DNA of 64,000 nucleotides from NCBI RefSeq assembly GCF_030450055.1, contig NZ_CP118480.1:2569415-2633414 (forward strand). The letters run 5' to 3'. Below are positions 3,515 to 15,195 of this stretch, piece by piece. Every line of letters begins with the position of its first letter. Position 1 is the stretch's first letter. This DNA is from Gallaecimonas kandeliae (GTDB lineage: Bacteria > Pseudomonadota > Gammaproteobacteria > Enterobacterales > Gallaecimonadaceae). The notes beneath the pieces were generated by a model. It saw nothing but the letters and a program-made list of their open reading frames with translations. It searched no databases and was not told where the DNA came from. The position numbers and the translations under genes were made by a program.

Positions 3515-4272
3515 AGATCCTCGTCATGCCAGGCACCGGCCTTGGCCATCAGGCCTTGGCAGTCCCAGCCAAAATCGGTGAAAAGATTTTCCCAGCTTGC
3601 CGGCAGAGGCGCCCTGATGTCCAGCGCCTCGCCCGTCACCGGGTGTGTGAAAGCCAGGCGCCAGGCCCGCAGGGCCAGTTCCCGAAAACCCAGCACTTCC
3701 CGAAACAGCAGGTTGTGCTTGCCGTCGCCATGGGTGGTGTCGTTGACGATGGGGTGGCGCAGGTGATCGAAGTGGCGGCGCAGCTGGTGGCGGCGGCCTG
3801 TCAGGGGCGAGCAGGTCACCAGGCTGTAACGGGCCGTCTGGTAACGGCCGACGGCATGGGGCAACTCACAATGGGCCAGGGGCGCGTAGGCAGTGACGGC
3901 GTCCTGGGCTTCTTTTTCCTTGCGCGGCTGGCCCATGACGGCGTCGTATTCTTCCACCAGGGGGTAGTCCAGCACGGCCCCTTCCTTGACCCAACCCCGC
4001 ACCAGGCTCAGGTAGCTCTTCTTGACTTGGCGGGCGCTGAACTGCTCGGCCAACTGCCTGGCTACCTCTGGGCTCAGCGCAAAGAGCAACAGGCCTGAGG
4101 TGGGCCTGTCCAGCCGGTGCACAGGGTAGACGTGCTGGCCCAACTGGTCCCGCAGCAGCTGCATGGCGAAAACCCTCTCCCCTGCCGCTATCTTGGATCT
4201 GTGCACCAGAAGCCCAGCTGGCTTGTCGATGACCACCAGGTGTTCATCCTGGAAGCAGATCTCCAGCATCAT
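3511..4272 (-). CDS. truC: TruC, tRNA pseudouridine(65) synthase
   Basis: Isomerises U65 in tRNA. The protein has the RluA-family catalytic motif HRLDRPTSGLLLF with the nucleophilic aspartate, and the second family motif GRRHQLRRH. The frame stays open further upstream, but the real start is most likely ATG at 4272: it overlaps the yqcC stop codon in an ATGA arrangement and gives the family N-terminus MMLEICFQDEHLVVIDKPAG. The 3' end overlaps yqcA by 4 nt. Length (~253 residues) fits TruC. Confidence 0.9.
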   Translation of the reverse strand: MMLEICFQDEHLVVIDKPAGLLVHRSKIAAGERVFAMQLLRDQLGQHVYPVHRLDRPTSGLLLFALSPEVARQLAEQFSARQVKKSYLSLVRGWVKEGAVLDYPLVEEYDAVMGQPRKEKEAQDAVTAYAPLAHCELPHAVGRYQTARYSLVTCSPLTGRRHQLRRHFDHLRHPIVNDTTHGDGKHNLLFREVLGFRELALRAWRLAFTHPVTGEALDIRAPLPASWENLFTDFGWDCQGLMAKAGAWHDEDL

Positions 4273-4595
4273 TCCCTGACCCGCTTGCCGCTCAGCAGTT
4301 CGTCCAGGTCGGCTATTCGGTCCAGCAGCACCATCACCTTGTCGCCGTGGTGGCGCCAAGCCTCTTCGGCCATGGGGCAGACACTGACGTTATGGGGAAC
4401 ATTGCCTACCTGGATAAGCACTGTGAGTTTGGGCAGGTAGATGAACTGCACCCACTGCTCGAAGTCCAATGTGTCAACGGCAAAGGGTTGGGTGCTGGCC
4501 AAGGCCTCGGCGGAAGGTTCAACGTCAGACCAGAGGCCGTGTTGACGCATTTCCATCTCGATCAGGCTGATGAGATCCAGGGCGCGATCCCGCAT
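4269..4595 (-). CDS. yqcC: YqcC family protein (DUF446)
   Basis: A 108-residue mostly helical soluble protein of unknown function. The sequence matches the YqcC pattern (LISLIEMEMRQHGLW near the N-terminus, the FEQWVQFIYLPKL core). It is the first gene of the minus-strand run yqcC-truC-yqcA-ptsG and overlaps truC by 4 nt. The same order yqcC-truC-yqcA occurs in E. coli, which supports the call more than any known biochemical role. Confidence 0.85.
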   Translation of the reverse strand: MRDRALDLISLIEMEMRQHGLWSDVEPSAEALASTQPFAVDTLDFEQWVQFIYLPKLTVLIQVGNVPHNVSVCPMAEEAWRHHGDKVMVLLDRIADLDELLSGKRVRE

Positions 4596-4679: not shown

Positions 4680-5609
4680 ATGGAATTGACCAACCTGGCC
4701 GATTTTCTCGACGCCAGCGGCGCCCGTTACCGGATCTTCGATCTGGGCCGACGGGTAGTGCCATTGCCCGAAGACGACTTCAGGCGCTGTGCCGAAGGCG
4801 AGCGGCCCTATCCCTACCCTCTGCAGCGCCAGGCCTGGCTGGGCATTCTTTTTTGGCAAGACCAGCCCTATGTCTGGTTCGTCCGTCTGGGGCTGGACGA
4901 GCAGGGCCTCATCAATCAGGGCCAGGCTGCCCAGTTCATGGCCCAGGTACTGGCCGCCATGCAAGAAGGGCGGGATGCCCTGCCGGACAATCCCTTCACC
5001 TTCCTGCCCAGCGAGGAAAAACGCGCCGCCTTTCATAGCCAGGCCAAGTTGCTGCTGGGCGAGCCGGCATCCCTCTATTACGAAGAGACCCTGGCCTACG
5101 CCCGTGGCCAGCTGCGGGACTGGCAACGCCTTGGTCTGCAAGGCCTGGCTGACCTGGTGGCAAGGGACAAAGACCAGCCCTGGTTCCCAGGCTTTGTCGC
5201 CGAGGCTCCCCTGGAAGTGCTGATACCCCTGGCCATGCAGTTGGAAAACCACAAGCTGGCCCCCGAGTTGGCCGAAGCGCTCTGGGAGCGCTTGCCCCAA
5301 GCTCCTCTCCCACTGGGGCGAGCCCTGGGACGAACCGGCAAGGCCGCCGAAGTCGCCGACAAGCTCTTGGCAGAAGCCGCCCTGCAAGACTTGCTGGTGG
5401 TAGCCGGCAGGCTCTGGGAGAGCCTGGAGGATGAAAAGCGCCTCGGCCATTTCCTGGAACTGGCGGCAGCCCTCGAAGAGGGAAGGCACTTCCCTGCCCT
5501 TTTTGCCGATCTGGTGATGCTGCCATCCCTGCGGCCAAAGCTGCTGGCCAAACTCCGTGACCCCGAACGCTCTGTGGCATTGGCCAAAGCCCTGGGGAGC
5601 CTGTTTTGA
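4680..5609 (+). CDS. DUF3549 family protein
   Basis: A 309-residue soluble protein without signal peptide or membrane segments. It matches my recollection of the DUF3549 family found next to truC/yqcC in Shewanella- and Vibrio-type genomes. The N-terminal part (about residues 1-95) is compact and contains a tryptophan-rich stretch (LGILFWQDQPYVWFVRLGL); the C-terminal half is helical and leucine/alanine rich, resembling repeat helices. No catalytic motif is visible. It overlaps the next gene by 4 nt (TTGA), suggesting coupled translation. Confidence 0.75.
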   Translation: MELTNLADFLDASGARYRIFDLGRRVVPLPEDDFRRCAEGERPYPYPLQRQAWLGILFWQDQPYVWFVRLGLDEQGLINQGQAAQFMAQVLAAMQEGRDALPDNPFTFLPSEEKRAAFHSQAKLLLGEPASLYYEETLAYARGQLRDWQRLGLQGLADLVARDKDQPWFPGFVAEAPLEVLIPLAMQLENHKLAPELAEALWERLPQAPLPLGRALGRTGKAAEVADKLLAEAALQDLLVVAGRLWESLEDEKRLGHFLELAAALEEGRHFPALFADLVMLPSLRPKLLAKLRDPERSVALAKALGSLF

Positions 5610-5893
5610 GCGAACTCCTGACCCTGCTACTGCTAGCCCTGGGACTGTTCATCTTCTGGCGGCTGCGTCAGCAGGAGGAATGGGCCAGGGCGGCGGCCGT
5701 CCAACTCTGTCAACGCCACCAGGTGCAATTACTGGAGGTGGCCCTGCACAGGCGCCGCCTGGGGCGGCGAGGGCTGGTGCACCACTATGTCATGGAAGTG
5801 AGCCTCAACGCCGACGAACGCTATCAGGTCCATTTCGCCATGGCGGGGCGTCGGCTGCTTGATGTGCAGTGGCCGGTGATGAGGGAGTACTAG
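5606..5893 (+). CDS. DUF3301 family small membrane-anchored protein
   Basis: Ninety-five residues: an N-terminal membrane helix (LLTLLLLALGLFIFW) followed by a basic cytoplasmic part with the family pattern of a CxxxxVQLLEVAL stretch. The start is TTG at 5606, within a TTGA overlap with DUF3549, where the upstream ribosome would re-initiate. Function unknown. The following 1.57 kb contain no protein gene but carry the three sRNA genes listed next. Confidence 0.72.
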   Translation: MSELLTLLLLALGLFIFWRLRQQEEWARAAAVQLCQRHQVQLLEVALHRRRLGRRGLVHHYVMEVSLNADERYQVHFAMAGRRLLDVQWPVMREY

Positions 5894-5916: not shown

Positions 5917-5954
5917 AAAAAAGAAGAGCCGGGAAGGGGCAACCCCTTCCCGGC
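5917..5954 (-). terminator. Rho-independent terminator of csrB copy 1
   Basis: A perfect 12-bp stem (arms 5928-5939 and 5943-5954, loop of 3) is followed on the minus strand by TCTTCTTTTTT. This fixes the transcribed strand of the RNA. Confidence 0.92.
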
Positions 5955-6270
5955 GAGAGCGGCTTGGATGTCGATTCCTTGCGCTTTATGCTCCCTGCAT
6001 CAATCCTTGATGCTCCCTATCCCTGGGACTTCCTTAAAAGGCTCCTGCCTTGATCCTGTTTGGCTTCCTTACCTGGCCAAGCATCCTGCTTCGCCAACCC
6101 GTCCTGGGTATTACCGCCATCCTGCGGTGTCGTCCCTGCTGTCATCCTTGTATCGGCGTCCTGCCGACACTGATAAGACTAAGCTTTTACCGGCCGATAA
6201 CAAGGCGACCTCGGGCCTTCAAAGCCCGAGCCAAACCGACTCTGGCTGCAGTCATTTTGCATAAGACACT
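5917..6270 (-). ncRNA. csrB: CsrB-like regulatory RNA, copy 1
   Basis: Read on the minus strand, this ~354-nt stretch contains about 15 GGA motifs outside the terminator, many as CAGGAYG or AAGGA in loops of short hairpins, for example CCGCAGGATGGCGG, CCCAGGACGGG, AAGCAGGATGCTT and GGCAGGAGCC. This is the signature of CsrB/RsmZ-type RNAs, which sequester the mRNA-binding regulator CsrA. It ends in a strong terminator (12-bp stem, CAA loop, T6). The 5' end is placed at the A of AACAGTGTCTTAT, shared with copy 3, after an AATCTAAA-like -10; this start is inferred. In E. coli csrB also lies between yqcC and syd, which flank this cluster here. No convincing reading frame is conserved among the copies. 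Confidence 0.92.
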
Positions 6271-6340
6271 GTTTTAGATTGGAATTAATAAAACACGTCG
6301 GAAATGGCGGGGGAAACAAAGCGGCATTTGCCCAGGGCTT

Positions 6341-6358
6341 TGTAAGAGATTTCGCACA
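6341..6358. promoter_or_regulatory. GacA/UvrY/VarA box upstream of csrB copy 1
   Basis: TGTAAGAGATTTCGCACA is close to the palindromic upstream activating sequence TGTAAG-N6-CTTACA used by GacA-family response regulators at csrB/rsm genes. Its centre is about 80 nt upstream of the inferred start at 6270. The flanking bases are also shared with the box of copy 2. Confidence 0.8.
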
Positions 6359-6410
6359 AGGAAAAGGAATAAACGGCCAAGGCAGCGCAATGCGAATTCA
6401 AAGAAGCGGG

Positions 6411-6447
6411 ACAAAGAGAAGCCGGGAAGAGGATACCCCTTCCCGGC
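6411..6447 (-). terminator. Terminator of csrB copy 2, weakened tail
   Basis: Stem GCCGGGAA/TTCCCGGC extended by four more pairs with one mismatch (6421-6447). On the minus strand the stem is followed by TTCTCTTTGT, so release may be less efficient and read-through towards copy 1 is possible. Confidence 0.7.
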
Positions 6448-6762
6448 GAGAGCGGCTTGGATGTCGATTCCCTGCGCTTTATGCTCCTTGCATCAGTCCT
6501 TGATGCTCCCAATCCTTGGGACTTCCCTAAAAGGCTCCTGCCTTTGTCCTGTTCGGTATCCTTACCTGGCCAAGCGTCCTGCTTCACCAACCCGTCCTGG
6601 GCATTACCGCATCCTGCGGTGTCGTCCATGTCCTCATCCTTGTGCCAGCGTCCTGCTGACAGTGCAAAGATTACCCCTTTACCGCGCCATAACAACCGAC
6701 TGACGGAGCCTAGAGCAACTTCCAGAGCGTAAGAAAGCAAAGGCACAAAACAATAACCGCAT
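6411..6762 (-). ncRNA. csrB: CsrB-like regulatory RNA, copy 2
   Basis: A ~352-nt minus-strand RNA closely similar to copy 1 over its 3' two thirds (same order of hairpins CCGCAGGATGCGG, CCCAGGACGGG, GGCAGGAGCC and the AAGCGCAGGGAATCGACATCC block). About 17 GGA motifs are visible. The 5' third has diverged from copies 1 and 3. The start is inferred from TAAAACATGCGGTTAT, which aligns with TAAAACAGTGTCTTAT of copy 1, and from the 80-nt distance to its GacA box. The terminator stem is retained with one mismatch, but its tail is TTCTCTTTGTCC, less T-rich than in the other copies. It should titrate CsrA like its neighbours. Confidence 0.9.
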
Positions 6763-6832
6763 GTTTTAAAAGACAATTTTAAAAATCCCGCAGAAATCAC
6801 CAAGGCAACAAAGGGAGATTTTCCCAGGCTTT

Positions 6833-6850
6833 TGTAAGAGATCTCGCACA
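6833..6850. promoter_or_regulatory. GacA/UvrY/VarA box upstream of csrB copy 2
   Basis: TGTAAGAGATCTCGCACA matches the TGTAAG-N6-CTTACA consensus at most positions and differs from the box of copy 1 at a single base. Its centre is about 80 nt upstream of the inferred start at 6762. Confidence 0.82.
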
Positions 6851-6905
6851 AGGGGATGGCATAAAAGCTCAGTGAGCTACTAAGGAAGCAGGGTCCAGCC
6901 CCCAT

Positions 6906-6940
6906 AAAAAAGAAGAGCCGGAAAGGTTTCCCTTCCCGGC
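6906..6940 (-). terminator. Rho-independent terminator of csrB copy 3
   Basis: A 10-bp stem with one G-U pair (arms 6917-6926 and 6931-6940) is followed on the minus strand by TCTTCTTTTTT. Confidence 0.88.
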
Positions 6941-7032
6941 TGGCGGCTTGGTGTCTTTCCTGGCGCTACCTGCTTCTCGCATCTTCCATGACGCCCCTTA
7001 CCTGGGCATATCCTGATGGCGTCCTGCCACTG

Positions 7033-7222
7033 TCCTGTTCGGCTTCCTGCCAGGCCGGGCTCCTACCCCGCCTCGGGTCCTTCCGGCTGCGGCTCCTGCC
7101 GTTGTCCTGTTCGGCTTCCTGCCGGGCCGGGCTCCTGCCCCGCCTCGGGTCCTTCCGGTTGCGGCTCCTGCCACTGTCCTGTTCGGCTTCCTACCGGGCC
7201 GGGCTCCTGCCCCGCCTCGCTT
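7033..7222. repeat. 72-bp tandem repeat, about 2.6 copies, inside csrB copy 3
   Basis: The motif TCCTGTTCGGCTTCCT recurs at 7033, 7105 and 7177, exactly 72 bp apart, and the sequence between is nearly identical with a few substitutions. The third unit is cut short near 7222. On the transcribed strand each unit carries five GGA motifs, so the array multiplies potential CsrA sites. Confidence 0.93.
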
Positions 7223-7451
7223 CCTGGCAATACCGCACTCCTGCGGTCGCATCCCTGCTGCCTTCCTGGCTGTCAGCATCCTGCCTACGACTTAAGAATA
7301 AGAGATGGACAGCGGGGAACAAGGCGACTCCAGGGGGGCTGGACCAGGGAGAACGGCACCAAAAATGAAGATAAGACACTGTTACATAATGAATTTAACA
7401 ACAAGAGCCCGCCGGATGCCGACAGCACAAAGTGGTGATGGCCCAAGCCCC

Positions 7452-7469
7452 TGTGAGATATGGCTTACA
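7452..7469. promoter_or_regulatory. GacA/UvrY/VarA box upstream of csrB copy 3
   Basis: TGTGAGATATGGCTTACA differs from TGTAAG-N6-CTTACA at one defined position. Its centre is about 80 nt from the inferred start at 7380. It overlaps the last codons of the DUF962 gene (stop at 7465-7467). Confidence 0.82.
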
Positions 7470-7770
7470 TCCTATTGCCGAAAAAGCGGCGCAGCATCTG
7501 CCCGAACATCACCCAATCCCCCAGCAAGCTGTACCAGGGGTGGCTGAAAGTGGCAGGCTTGTTGTGCTCGAAAAAGAAGTGCCCTACCCAGGCGCAGCCG
7601 TAGCCGGCGACCGGCAGCCACCACAGCAGCGACCAGCGGCCTGTCAGCAGCGCGGCCAGCAGCAGAAGCAGCACCAGGGTTGAGCCCAGGTAGTGTAGGC
7701 GCCGGCACCAAGGGTCTTGGTGTTCGCCAAGGTAAAAAGGGTAGAACTCCTTGAACCTGTGGTACTTCAT
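7465..7770 (-). CDS. DUF962 (Mpo1-like) membrane protein
   Basis: About 101 residues with the family pattern: an N-terminal FKEFYPFYLGEHQDPWCRRLHYLG segment (histidines flanking a short loop), two hydrophobic helices, and a second histidine cluster in the VGHFFFEHNKPATFSHP region. Mpo1 of yeast is an iron-dependent dioxygenase of 2-hydroxy fatty acids with the same conserved histidines; that bacterial members do this is inference. ATG at 7770 is chosen because it overlaps the stop of the upstream GNAT gene (ATGA). Its 3' end overlaps the GacA box of csrB copy 3. Confidence 0.78.
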   Translation of the reverse strand: MKYHRFKEFYPFYLGEHQDPWCRRLHYLGSTLVLLLLLAALLTGRWSLLWWLPVAGYGCAWVGHFFFEHNKPATFSHPWYSLLGDWVMFGQMLRRFFGNRM

Positions 7771-9763: not shown

Positions 9764-10279
9764 TCAGGCCTCGCTTGCGCTGAGGTTGTCGAGGAACTCG
9801 GCCAGGCTGGGGGCCAGCACTTCCCTGGCCTCCTGGCCCACCGGCTCCAGCACCACGGCGCCGCTTTCGTTGTCGATGCTCAGCAGCAGATCCTCGTCGT
9901 CGGTACAGGCGATAAAGAGGGTGATGGGCTGCTTGAGTCGCCGCTTCATCAGCACATGGCCGATGAGGTTCTCCTGGAGCCGTTCAAAATCGGCCTGGTT
10001 CCAGGCCCCCAGCAACAACACTTCACCGCGCTGGTGCCGGACCTTGAGATGCTCCATGAAGTAATGGCCATAGTAGGCCTTGACGCTGGGATGCAGCGCC
10101 AGCTCCAGGGCTTTTTCGAGATCGGTAAATAGGCCTGGGGGGTCCCGCTTCACCGGCTGCCAGCGGCCGTCGCCCTCGCAAGGGGAAGGCCAGTCGGGAT
10201 CAGGCTGGTATCGCCAGCAGGGGTTGTCTTGGGGCAGGCGGGCGAACAGGCGCTCCAGGGCGGCAAGGCTGTGGTCCAT
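9764..10279 (-). CDS. syd: Syd, SecY-interacting protein
   Basis: Cytoplasmic acidic protein of about 171 residues that binds SecY and is thought to check translocon assembly. The family opening (ALERLFARLP...PCWRYQP) and the GAWNQADFERLQENLIGHVLMKRRL core are visible. The frame is open far upstream on this strand, overlapping queF, but the ATG at 10279 gives the family length and faces queF (start 10334) divergently, as in E. coli. Confidence 0.9.
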   Translation of the reverse strand: MDHSLAALERLFARLPQDNPCWRYQPDPDWPSPCEGDGRWQPVKRDPPGLFTDLEKALELALHPSVKAYYGHYFMEHLKVRHQRGEVLLLGAWNQADFERLQENLIGHVLMKRRLKQPITLFIACTDDEDLLLSIDNESGAVVLEPVGQEAREVLAPSLAEFLDNLSASEA

Positions 10280-10333
10280 CAAAGGCGGCTCTTGGGATAC
10301 AATGGCAGGCCAGTTTAGCCAAGGCCGCGAGCA

Positions 10334-11509: not shown

Positions 11510-13657
11510 ATGAAAAGAGTCCTGCTTTGCCTCATGCTCATCAGCCTGCCGGTACTGGCTTTCGACCAGGAACAGCTGTTCGACGCCCGGATCCAGGTTC
11601 TTCAAGCCCCAGACAAGGCCATCAGCCTGGCCGACCAGGTTCTGGCGGACAAGGCCGACGGCTTGGCGTTCCAGGCGCTGCTGCTAAAGGGCTGGGCCTT
11701 GCTGGCAAAGCATGCCAGCAGAGACAGCATGGATCCCGTCCTCGACCAGTTGAAGACGCGGGCCGCCGCAGGCACTGATCCCCTGCAGAAGGCCGACTAC
11801 GCCTACCTCAAGGCCAAGGTGCTGATCTATTTCGACTCCGATCTCAACCGCGCTTTGCCACTGCTGGAAGAGGCCATGAGCTACTGCCGCCCCTTCAACC
11901 AGCTGCGGGCCTACCAGTATTGCGCCGAGATCAGTTCCAGCGCCGCCCATGTCTATGCCTTCATCGGTGACCTGGACAAGGCCCGCAATCTCATCTCCGA
12001 CAGCTATCGCTTCGCCAAGCTGGGGGGACGCAACAACATCTACCTGGAGCTCAAGTTGCTGGAAGCGGCCCTGGCCCGGCGCCAGAACCAGCCGGCCCAG
12101 TCACTGACCCTGCTCAAGGAGACAGAGCTGGAAGCCGAGCAACTGGGCGACAAGCTCTACCAGGGCAAGGCCCTTAGCCGCCAGGGGATGATCTACGCCG
12201 GCCTGGGCCAGTACAAGCAGGCAGAGCAGGCCCAGATGGACGCCCTGGCCCTCTTCCAGAAACTCGATGACCAGGACGATCTGGCTATCAGCTTCCGCTA
12301 CTTGGGGGAGCTAATGCTGGCCACCGACAGGCCGCAACTGGCCCTGGTGCAGTTCTATAACGCCCTGGACATCGTCAACCGCCTGGGCCAGGCCATGGCC
12401 GCCGGCCAGCTGCTGATGGACATAGGCCAGGGCTACCTGAGCCTCGGTAAACTGGACAAGGCTGAGGCCATGCTGACCCAAGCCAAGGAGCAGCTGACCC
12501 GCCTCCAGGGCAGCCTCTACCTGCCCAAGGCCAATTACCAGTTGGGCAAGCTCTACCTGGCCCAGCACCAGGACGACAAGGCGGCCCTCGCCCTCCAGGC
12601 CGCCATCGACGGCGCCGAAGCCAACCCCACAGTGGAGCGGGAACTCCACAGCAAGGCTCTTCAGGCCCTGGCCGGCCTCTATGAAAGCCAGGGCCAGTAC
12701 CAAAAGGCCCTGGAAGTCACCAAGACCCTGGCTAATTTGAATAGCGGCGCCAAGCCCAGCCAGATCACCGTCAAGGTCTCGGCGCCACCACCGGCGGCGC
12801 CACCGGCCAAAGAGCCGGCCCTGCCACCGCTGGCGGTGGCTTTGGGCCTTGCCCTTGGCGCCGGCGGCTGCTGGCTGGGCCTGGCCGGCTGGCGCCGCCA
12901 CCAGCGCCAACGGCACCTGGCCGGTGCCGGCCAACACCCTGCCACCGGTTTCATGAACATCAACGCTTTCCTCCAGGAAGGGGACCAGATGCTGAGCGAG
13001 CTGCGCCTGGCCATGGATCTCAGTCCCCTTTCCGCCGGCCAGGCCAACCACCAGCCTCTGGCCGCCGTGCTCTGCCGCTTGTCCGGCATGGCCGAGGTCT
13101 ACGAGAGCCTCGGCTTTCAGGAAACCCGGCGCCGCTTCGGCCACTTCGCCAAGCAGCTGACCCTGGCCCTGCCGGAAGCCAGGATGCTGGTGCAACCCTC
13201 CCGGGACCTGCTGCTGTTCGTGCTCTCCAGCCCCGGCTACAGCCAGGAGGACAGCCTCACCATGCGGCTGCGCCAGATCCTCGACAAGGCCGCCCGCCAG
13301 TCGGGCCTGGACGTGGGCCAGCAGACCCTGACCGGCACCCTGCTGCCGCTGCTGCCCTACCACCCCAGGGTGGGCAGCGCCATGACGGTGCTCGAAACCC
13401 TGCTCTTTGCCCAGCACCTGGCCGCCCTCGACAGCCCCCAGGCCGACATCTGGGTGATAGGCCTGAGCTGCACCCTGCCCTCGGCCCTGGCCGAGCCGGT
13501 CAGGGACAGCCTCGGCGAGGCCATCCAGAAGGGCACCATCAAGGTGACGGGGCTGCCCTACTCGGATTTGATGCAGAGATTGCAACAGCTCAATGCAAGC
13601 CAAGAGACTTTCGCGGTAAACTGGCCCAATAAAGAACAGGCTCTGCCAATATCATGA
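11510..13657 (+). CDS. Periplasmic TPR protein with membrane helix and degenerate GGDEF-like C-terminus
   Basis: The 715-residue protein starts with a signal peptide (MKRVLLCLMLISLPVLA). Residues ~20-425 are tetratricopeptide-like helices, for example ALSRQGMIYAGLGQYKQAEQ and ALAGLYESQGQYQKALEV. A proline/alanine linker and a membrane helix (about 440-465) follow. The last ~220 residues have the outline of a GGDEF domain (TGFMNINAFLQE where TGLPNRRAF is expected, and an LRQILDKAARQSG segment), but the GG(D/E)EF motif is absent, so it should not make c-di-GMP. It overlaps the active cyclase gene by 4 nt (ATGA) and may sense a periplasmic signal for it. The GGDEF assignment is my inference. Confidence 0.72.
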   Translation: MKRVLLCLMLISLPVLAFDQEQLFDARIQVLQAPDKAISLADQVLADKADGLAFQALLLKGWALLAKHASRDSMDPVLDQLKTRAAAGTDPLQKADYAYLKAKVLIYFDSDLNRALPLLEEAMSYCRPFNQLRAYQYCAEISSSAAHVYAFIGDLDKARNLISDSYRFAKLGGRNNIYLELKLLEAALARRQNQPAQSLTLLKETELEAEQLGDKLYQGKALSRQGMIYAGLGQYKQAEQAQMDALALFQKLDDQDDLAISFRYLGELMLATDRPQLALVQFYNALDIVNRLGQAMAAGQLLMDIGQGYLSLGKLDKAEAMLTQAKEQLTRLQGSLYLPKANYQLGKLYLAQHQDDKAALALQAAIDGAEANPTVERELHSKALQALAGLYESQGQYQKALEVTKTLANLNSGAKPSQITVKVSAPPPAAPPAKEPALPPLAVALGLALGAGGCWLGLAGWRRHQRQRHLAGAGQHPATGFMNINAFLQEGDQMLSELRLAMDLSPLSAGQANHQPLAAVLCRLSGMAEVYESLGFQETRRRFGHFAKQLTLALPEARMLVQPSRDLLLFVLSSPGYSQEDSLTMRLRQILDKAARQSGLDVGQQTLTGTLLPLLPYHPRVGSAMTVLETLLFAQHLAALDSPQADIWVIGLSCTLPSALAEPVRDSLGEAIQKGTIKVTGLPYSDLMQRLQQLNASQETFAVNWPNKEQALPIS

Positions 13658-15195
13658 GTGACCCTATCGATATGGACGCCAAGCTGCGGGAAAGACTGGC
13701 CGCCAGCCTTCGCCTCCAGGAGCAGCAACGCCGGGATATCCAGAACCAGCTGGATGCCGTCAGCCAACTGTTGCAACGGACCTGCCACCTGGCCTTTGGC
13801 CTGGATCCCGAGCTCGACGAGAGCCTCAAACGGCTCACCAACCTGGTGCTCAACCCCGAGAACCTGGGCCGCAGCCTGGCCCAACTGCTGGCCATCAACG
13901 ACCAGCTCAACCAGCAGCAGGACCGCCAGGAACAGCGCCTGGGCGGCTGGCAGACGACCCTCACCGAGACCCTCAAGCAGCTGCATCACATCAATGGCCT
14001 GCCGACGGACCTGCGCCGCCAGCTGAAAAGCCTGATCACCGACCTGCACCTGCCCAGGGTCACCCTCTACCGGCTGTTGCCCGCCACCCAGGAAGCCCTG
14101 AGCCTGCTGCTCAAGGTGGTATCCCTGCAGAGGCGCAGCCCCGACAGCTTCGGCGGCCACCCCCACCAGGGCGACCCCGAGGTGCTGGACCAGCTGATGT
14201 CCCTGGTCTCCAGCCTCAAGCTGTCCGGCGCCGACCACGAGCTGCACCAGATCCGCCGCCAGTTACTGTCCCCCCTGTCCCAGGACGCCCTGCTGAAACT
14301 CTGCCTGGATTTCCTGCAGGTGCTGGTCAAGGTGCTGGACCAGGAGCGGCAGCTGGCCAAACAGTTCCTCAGTATCGCCGGCGCCAGCCTGCACAACCTG
14401 CAACAGCACACCTGCAATGCCCTGGCCCACTGCCAAGCCCTGGACGAGAGCCGCAAGGAGCTCAATGCCCGCTTCTCGGCCCAGCTGGCCGCCCTGGACC
14501 AGGCCATGGAGAACCGCTCCTGGCCGGAAATGTTCTCCGGCATGGCCGCCTTGACCCAGCTCTGGCAACAGAAGCAGGCCCAGGAGGACGAACACCAGCA
14601 ACAGCTGCAAGGCCGCCTGGAAGATCTCAAACACCAGATAGCGGAGCTGGAGCTCCAGGCCCAGCAATACCGGGATCGCCTGGCCCAGCAGCGCCTGGAC
14701 AGCCTCCACGACAGCCTGACCCAACTGCCCAACCGCGCCGCCTTCGACGAGCGGCTGTCGGTGGAACACAAACGCCTGCAACGCTTTGGCCACCCCCTGT
14801 GGCTGGCGGTGCTGGACATCGACCATTTCAAGGAAATCAACGACAAGTACGGGCACACGGCCGGCGACAAGACGCTGCGCTTCATCGCCCACACCATCAG
14901 GCGCGCCCTGCGTGAGACCGACTTCGTGGCCCGCTACGGTGGCGAGGAGTTCGTGATCATCTTCCCCGAACTGACCGAGACCGACATCAATCGCCCGCTG
15001 GAGAAACTCCACCAGGCGGTGCGCCAGATCCCCTTCAAGTTCAAGGATGAAGACGTGCGGATCACGATATCCATAGGTGCCACAGAAGTGGCGCCCCACG
15101 AGCAACCCATGCTGGCCTTCGAAAGGGCCGACCAGGCCCTCTACCAGGCCAAGCGCGGCGGCCGAAACCAGGTTGTGATCCTGCCCAAGGAGTAA
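13654..15195 (+). CDS. Diguanylate cyclase (GGEEF) with long helical N-terminus
   Basis: Predicted to make c-di-GMP from two GTP. Residues ~1-345 are helical and glutamine/leucine rich, with a probable coiled coil at about 310-350 that would help dimerisation. The C-terminal GGDEF domain starts at [16 protein letters not shown], carries the metal-binding [14 protein letters not shown] segment and the active-site RYGGEEF. RETD five residues before GGEEF is an intact inhibitory I-site. No signal peptide or membrane helix is seen, so it is cytoplasmic. The ATGA overlap with the upstream TPR gene and the 2-bp gap to ppnN place it in one operon. Confidence 0.9.

Follow-up and report, generated by a model that had tools for sequence, protein, structure and literature searches.

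On the minus strand of the window, that is, the whole 64,000-nt stretch of Gallaecimonas kandeliae DNA that was analysed, three CsrB-type units lie head to tail, with a DUF3301 gene on one side and an Mpo1-like gene on the other. The genes bordering this array, two conserved neighbours and the elements assigned to each unit are listed below. The unit starts (6169, 6661 and 7288) were placed about 7 nt past a -10-like element, and the transcripts and core promoters are given as predicted.

4269..4595, minus strand: yqcC (DUF446; PF04287, E 3.7e-30), conserved neighbour
5606..5893, plus strand: DUF3301 gene (PF11743), bordering the array
5918..6169, minus strand: CsrB-type sRNA unit 1, predicted transcript of about 252 nt with 16 GGA; RF00018 E 1.2e-9 over 5918-6203
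5928..5954, minus strand: intrinsic terminator of unit 1, from the terminator scan
6176..6203, minus strand: predicted core promoter of unit 1 (TTGTTA, 16 nt, TAGTCT)
6341..6358, minus strand: UvrY-box-like palindrome of unit 1, centred about 180.5 nt upstream of the predicted start
6412..6661, minus strand: CsrB-type sRNA unit 2, predicted transcript of about 250 nt with 17 GGA; RF00018 E 2.7e-9 over 6411-6702
6421..6447, minus strand: intrinsic terminator of unit 2, from the terminator scan, with an interrupted T tract
6668..6695, minus strand: predicted core promoter of unit 2 (TTGTTA, 16 nt, TAATCT)
6833..6850, minus strand: UvrY-box-like palindrome of unit 2, centred about 180.5 nt upstream of the predicted start
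6907..7288, minus strand: CsrB-type sRNA unit 3, enlarged, predicted transcript of about 382 nt with 26 GGA; RF00018 E 5.1e-4 over 6906-7193
6916..6941, minus strand: intrinsic terminator of unit 3, from the terminator scan
7022..7219, minus strand: 72-bp tandem repeat in unit 3 (TRF score 354, 93% match), 2.8 copies with 6 GGA per repeat
7295..7322, minus strand: predicted core promoter of unit 3 (TTGTTC, 16 nt, TATTCT)
7452..7469, minus strand: UvrY-box-like palindrome of unit 3, centred about 172.5 nt upstream of the predicted start and overlapping the end of the Mpo1-like gene
7465..7770, minus strand: Mpo1-like gene (PF06127), bordering the array
9764..10288, minus strand: syd (PF07348, E 2.1e-53), conserved neighbour

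Where units of several genomes are compared, they are lettered in the order of transcription, namely: A for unit 3, B for unit 2 and C for unit 1 of the window, whose source genome is G000; its relatives in the genus are G001 to G004.

CsrA is a global regulator, and its activity depends on the number of sites that its sponge RNAs offer. Kulkarni and co-workers reportedly predicted CsrA-regulating sRNAs in 2006. A sequence-only reading of the window had credited the three units with about 15, 17 and 25 GGA motifs, and the counts in the predicted transcripts (16, 17 and 26) bear this out, each exceeding all 200 mononucleotide shuffles of that unit (means 8, 8 and 15; maxima 15, 14 and 22 for units 1, 2 and 3). 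Segments of 250 nt with at least 14 GGA number 50 of 6375 on the minus strand and 0 of 6375 on the plus strand; every sixth of their starts was located (nine starts), and all lie within the array region. Units 1 and 2 are the most similar pair, as that reading had it, with 89% identity over 253 nt as reciprocal best matches in blastn. It had also singled out the third copy as enlarged, and the putative sRNA gene of unit 3 is indeed enlarged by an in-gene 72-bp repeat. The RNA of unit 3 has diverged, with a GC content of 0.66 vs. 0.57.

All three units give significant matches to the Rfam CsrB model in cmscan, though below the Rfam cut-off: units 1, 2 and 3 score 41.8, 40.6 and 23.2 bits, none of the three reaches the gathering score of 71 bits, and a scan of the whole window at the gathering threshold listed no entry. 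Since all scores fall short of 71 bits, we do not claim them as automatic RF00018 annotations, significant as their E-values are. The match of unit 3 is weak, its 23.2 bits standing against a bias term of 26.0. Over-threshold matches were found in 0 of the 5 genomes G000-G004, where one unit of the congener G003 reaches 70.3 bits; a whole genus can thus slip under Rfam's cut-off for CsrB. A genome-wide search with RF00018 at E 0.001 saw no further copies outside the array, and since the same search missed unit 3, another divergent copy may exist elsewhere. With unit 1 as the blastn query, the genome returned 8 matches, 7 of them in the array and 1 elsewhere at E 0.8.

The gene order is yqcA-truC-yqcC-DUF3549-DUF3301-array-Mpo1-GNAT-DUF2789-DUF2310-syd-queF (yqcA being assigned by position and tblastn), and that of E. 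coli is yqcA-truC-yqcC-csrB-syd-queF. The placement of the array at the E. coli csrB site between yqcC and syd, as first read from the letters, is therefore upheld by the shared truC-yqcC and syd-queF flanks, but the correspondence is not direct, as six further genes lie in between. Among the relatives, 9 of the 11 neighbouring genes are matched in all four; the Mpo1-like gene is matched only in G003, and the GNAT gene in G003 and G004. The genome, a single contig of 3.84 Mb, has one CsrA match and encodes homologues of UvrY (69% identity) and of BarA (47% over residues 1-913 of 918).

Each unit is preceded by an 18-nt box with 11 of 12 matches (raw count) to a consensus fixed beforehand. The UvrY box of E. 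coli csrB, measured in the same way, lies 182.5 nt upstream of the start, and the consulted part of the literature reports it at -183/-182 (PMC4682653). The boxes are thus UvrY-like in sequence and in distance and are candidate UvrY sites. Closer to the units, the predicted cores follow the pattern TTGTT(A/C), 16 nt, TA(G/A/T)TCT, and similar elements occur in other units of the genus; a generic promoter scan gave no sigma-70 consensus match at the array and did not detect these cores. A box-like site at the E. coli distance and a -35/-10-like core for every unit support the separate promoters that had been proposed. The 13-mer AACAGTGTCTTAT is found identically at 6261-6273 and 7371-7383 (minus strand), between the UvrY-like box and the core of units 1 and 3; it is weakly IHF-like in both (8 of 9 matches to an IHF consensus), and there is none in unit 2.

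The units were also said to end in terminators, and this is what we find: the scan gave 10 terminator-like sites vs. 2.3 expected, and the three longest stems are located at the three unit ends. It is conceivable that transcription reads through to yield longer composite RNAs, like PrrH from the tandem prrF1-prrF2 genes, a precedent described in the part of that paper at hand (PMC4211561), and the terminator of unit 2, with its interrupted T tract, would suit this. As every unit has a terminator stem of 11-12 pairs, however, we consider such read-through improbable.

In minimum free energy folds, 7 of 16, 8 of 17 and 17 of 26 GGA motifs of units 1, 2 and 3 fall in hairpin loops, about four times the share in dinucleotide shuffles (12, 12 and 16%), so the enrichment of GGA in loops over shuffled sequence is present in every unit; E. 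coli CsrB gives 9 of 22 by the same measure. The description of the motifs as lying largely in hairpins therefore fits the third copy, but for the first and second only about half of them are so placed. Covariation was assessed in an alignment of ten units of the genus, i.e. units 1 and 2 together with the A and B units of G001-G004, with unit 3 and the relatives' C-class units set apart. In the consensus fold, 25 of 63 pairs show changes on both sides with pairing kept, compared to 10.3 in shuffles (0 of 500 reach 25) and 3-11 in slid controls. The cells that pair in the consensus amount to 93.5%, which 0 of 500 shuffles reach and which drops to 36-48% upon sliding by 1-3 columns; since one and the same alignment served to derive the structure and to test it, this measure is favoured and the double changes are the stronger evidence. 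The predicted hairpin structure of the A/B-type units is, on these counts, under selection.

Taken together, the covariance-model matches, synteny, UvrY-box-like sites and covariation support the CsrB-like identity that was first proposed from the letters. The array very probably comprises three separately promoted and separately terminated CsrB-type sponges of CsrA at the ancestral csrB locus. Function is well supported by homology, and from the sequence we infer transcription, the start sites, control by UvrY, CsrA binding and a role in dosage. In the mechanism that we propose, the BarA/UvrY system, both members of which are encoded, would activate each promoter from its upstream palindrome; each RNA would then display many hairpins with GGA loops, to which the product of the single CsrA gene would bind and be sequestered, releasing its mRNA targets. 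The array would multiply the sponge output through its additional promoters and, in the case of unit 3, through the 72-bp repeat, which would add sites to each RNA.

The history of the units is more involved than a triplication. In the tree of unit bodies, a supported class (96/95) unites the C units of G001, G002 and G004, and unit 1, the C unit of the source genome, is rejected as their orthologue (AU p 6.8e-5). The head-to-tail triplication proposed by the sequence-only reading does not hold in its simple form, as unit 1 lies outside the C class of three relatives and the third copy carries its internal 72-bp repeat; a simple triplication of one gene is accordingly rejected. Since unit 1 falls outside the old C class and is closest to unit 2, the former last unit of the source genome was apparently replaced or displaced by one of the A/B type. 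G001 and G002 pair as orthologues in B (100/99) and also in A, where the branch is not starred (81/78). In the free tree, no group is formed by the A units of G000, G001, G002 and G004, but their union is not rejected (p 0.063). Homogenisation of siblings is supported by the tree for units A and B of G003 (100/99); for B and C of the source genome (units 2 and 1) it is not established, the support being 77/89 only. Units A and B of G004 are reciprocal best blastn matches, yet they stand apart in the free tree, where their union is not rejected (p 0.056). Near-identical siblings are seen elsewhere (99% over 319 nt in G016 and 100% over 400 in G015). Pairwise segment identities that omit gaps were set aside, and a tree of the promoter regions yielded 0 starred branches.

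Two other explanations of the array bear on this history. The duplications might be selectively neutral, coming and going at a repeat-rich locus at which one unit is enough; the number of units does vary, both across families and within the genus (3, 3, 3, 2 and 3 in G000-G004, by GGA density and boxes), and the non-orthology of unit 1 to the last unit of G001, G002 and G004 is what such birth and death would leave behind. We regard this as unlikely, as the extra units of diverged species have retained their boxes and core elements and the covariation of hairpins extends to both A and B units. Alternatively, the units may divide the labour instead of forming a dosage array, the RNAs differing in promoter input, stability or affinity, with unit 3 (diverged box and GC-rich repeat hairpins) as a specialist. 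The different half-site in its box, the divergence and GC content of its RNA and the diverged box-to-core regions (long branches, no starred fork) are consistent with this, as is the independence of V. tasmaniensis csrB1 from VarS/VarA stated in the portion of that study consulted (PMC6262261). Against it, all three units keep the box at nearly equal distance, and some sibling bodies, such as those of units 1 and 2, stay alike, which favours a shared function. A division of labour is therefore a possible reading, though one we would put behind that of a sponge array by a good distance.

The enlargement of unit 3 calls for separate consideration. A 93-aa ORF (6998-7279, minus strand) is open through the 72-bp repeat, and unit 3 could be taken for a repeat-peptide gene and no sponge at all. 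Plus-strand ORFs of 126 and 140 aa are open as well, however; the period of 72 is a multiple of 3, so that frames can stay open on both strands, and the scan of the array units in G001-G004 revealed no repeat of the 72-bp type. On these grounds, a peptide-coding unit 3 was rejected as highly improbable.

Taking unit 3 as a repeat-bearing sponge gene, we scanned 214 GGA-dense regions for repeats, a set that includes places fetched twice and possibly unrelated regions. Tandem repeats with a score of at least 120 are present in 21 of the 214, and two of these are second fetches (L021/L163 and L025/L045), which leaves 19. One genus (code g2) has in-gene repeats in all 8 of its fetched genomes (G005, G051, G070, G087, G102, G117, G156 and G169), a set that leaves out G030, G130 and G143, for which only other hits were listed. 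In 7 of the 8, the TRF unit is 50-52 bp or double that, with 4 GGA per unit and from 2.8 copies (G070) to 12.6 copies (G051, 51 bp), and one run of G051 contains 63 GGA; G156, cut by a contig end, gives TRF periods of 152 and 187. For five of the eight, the assembly consists of no more than three contigs, so that an artefact of assembly is less likely in these. The repeat-built CsrB-like loci of this genus are L038:2940-3775, L047:3670-4595 and L155-L161. In Shewanella sp. UCD-KL12 (L118, minus strand, 13610-14470), there is a single 860-nt GGA run with an 81-bp repeat in 5.8 copies, unlike many other Shewanella loci, which have two runs. The spread of the 51-bp repeat from 2.8 to 12.6 copies indicates that predicted CsrB RNAs are apparently able to grow in the manner of minisatellites.

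Tandem units themselves are widespread. RF00018 hits at E 0.1 or better occur in 31 of 59 surveyed genomes, a survey whose stricter filters lose weak matches. In 18 of the 59, two or more hits lie on one strand within 2 kb and do not overlap, a count based on spacing, whatever lies between the hits (the pairs in G005, G030 and G051 are 1.3 kb apart); G039 and G054 are more plausibly taken to have one repeat-bearing unit each, on account of partial second hits and repeats, leaving 16 of 59 genomes and 8 of 27 families. Arrays of three or more units are known from three sampled families, with a maximum of five, namely: G013 (five), G023, G037 and G057 by RF00018 hits, and G000, G001, G002 and G004 by GGA density and boxes. 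The five CsrB units of G013 (L036, minus strand, units A-E) include two, C and D, that are 100% identical over 329 nt, and a UvrY box is recognisable at the threshold used in the first of the five only.

Among the best 80 of 135 relatives' loci fetched with DUF2310, where runs were called by GGA density alone and no locus of the source genus appears (close records are possibly omitted), 34 have two GGA-dense runs within 2 kb, 23 have one, 23 have none and 0 have three. The two-run loci belong to Photobacterium, Grimontia, Enterovibrio, Veronia, Ferrimonas and Shewanella, plus one record titled Marinobacter. That record (L050, titled Marinobacter nauticus) has a csrB-like unit that resembles the one in Ferrimonas balearica at 86% over 384 nt, and it is possibly mislabelled. 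In a larger survey, at least 109 of 197 genomes have RF00018 matches at E 0.001. Tandem csrB pairs are thus common in the order, and pairs of S. oneidensis csrB (PMC3171408) and of rsmX (PMC7911923) are already described in the consulted parts of published papers, so the arrangement is not as exceptional as it had seemed at first.

Sponge capacity may be evolvable at two levels, namely the number of tandem csrB units (1 to 5) and the in-gene minisatellite repeats, each of which would add a few CsrA hairpins; the 72-bp and 51-bp repeats might then be independent VNTR-like cases in which slippage or recombination tunes the CsrA set point. We offer this tentatively, as a conjecture more likely to fail than to hold. 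The natural series of units and repeats, with runs of about 16 to 63 GGA, would allow one to study the evolution of the CsrA set point and possible selection on sponge capacity. Compared to the tandem array, the series of in-gene repeats has more novelty.

Several known systems resemble the array in part. In Shewanella oneidensis, csrB1 and csrB2 are neighbouring genes with predicted UvrY boxes, and according to the available part of that report (PMC3171408) there are two copies with a transposase gene between them, as opposed to three with no recognised gene between. The Pseudomonas rsmX-1 and rsmX-2 genes are tandem duplicates that encode RNAs sequestering RsmA, and an activating sequence lies upstream of each; as the excerpts of that work have it (PMC7911923), these RNAs are about 110 nt long, belong to another family and stand two in tandem vs. 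the three CsrB-type units here. In Vibrio, csrB1-4 are several CsrB copies that arose through duplication and, in the sections of the study drawn on (PMC6262261), are dispersed over different synteny groups, whereas the copies of the array are adjacent. Pseudoalteromonas fuliginea has, like the array, several GGA-rich Csr sRNAs (Pf1-Pf3, intergenic, with 25, 21 and 9 GGA motifs), and a tandem arrangement is no part of their description in the accessible text of that paper (PMC11882849). Among the titles listed from the open PMC literature, none was recognised to deal with three or more tandem csrB genes or with variation in CsrB repeat number; priority is not claimed, subscription papers being outside this scope.

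The closest counterpart is E. coli csrB, which shares with the array the yqcC/syd locus, a UvrY palindrome about 182 nt upstream, GGA hairpins and a terminator. It differs in being a single unit, while the array has three, with six extra genes within yqcC-syd, scores below the Rfam cut-off and one repeat-enlarged unit. Judged from its sequence, the CsrB-type array is real.
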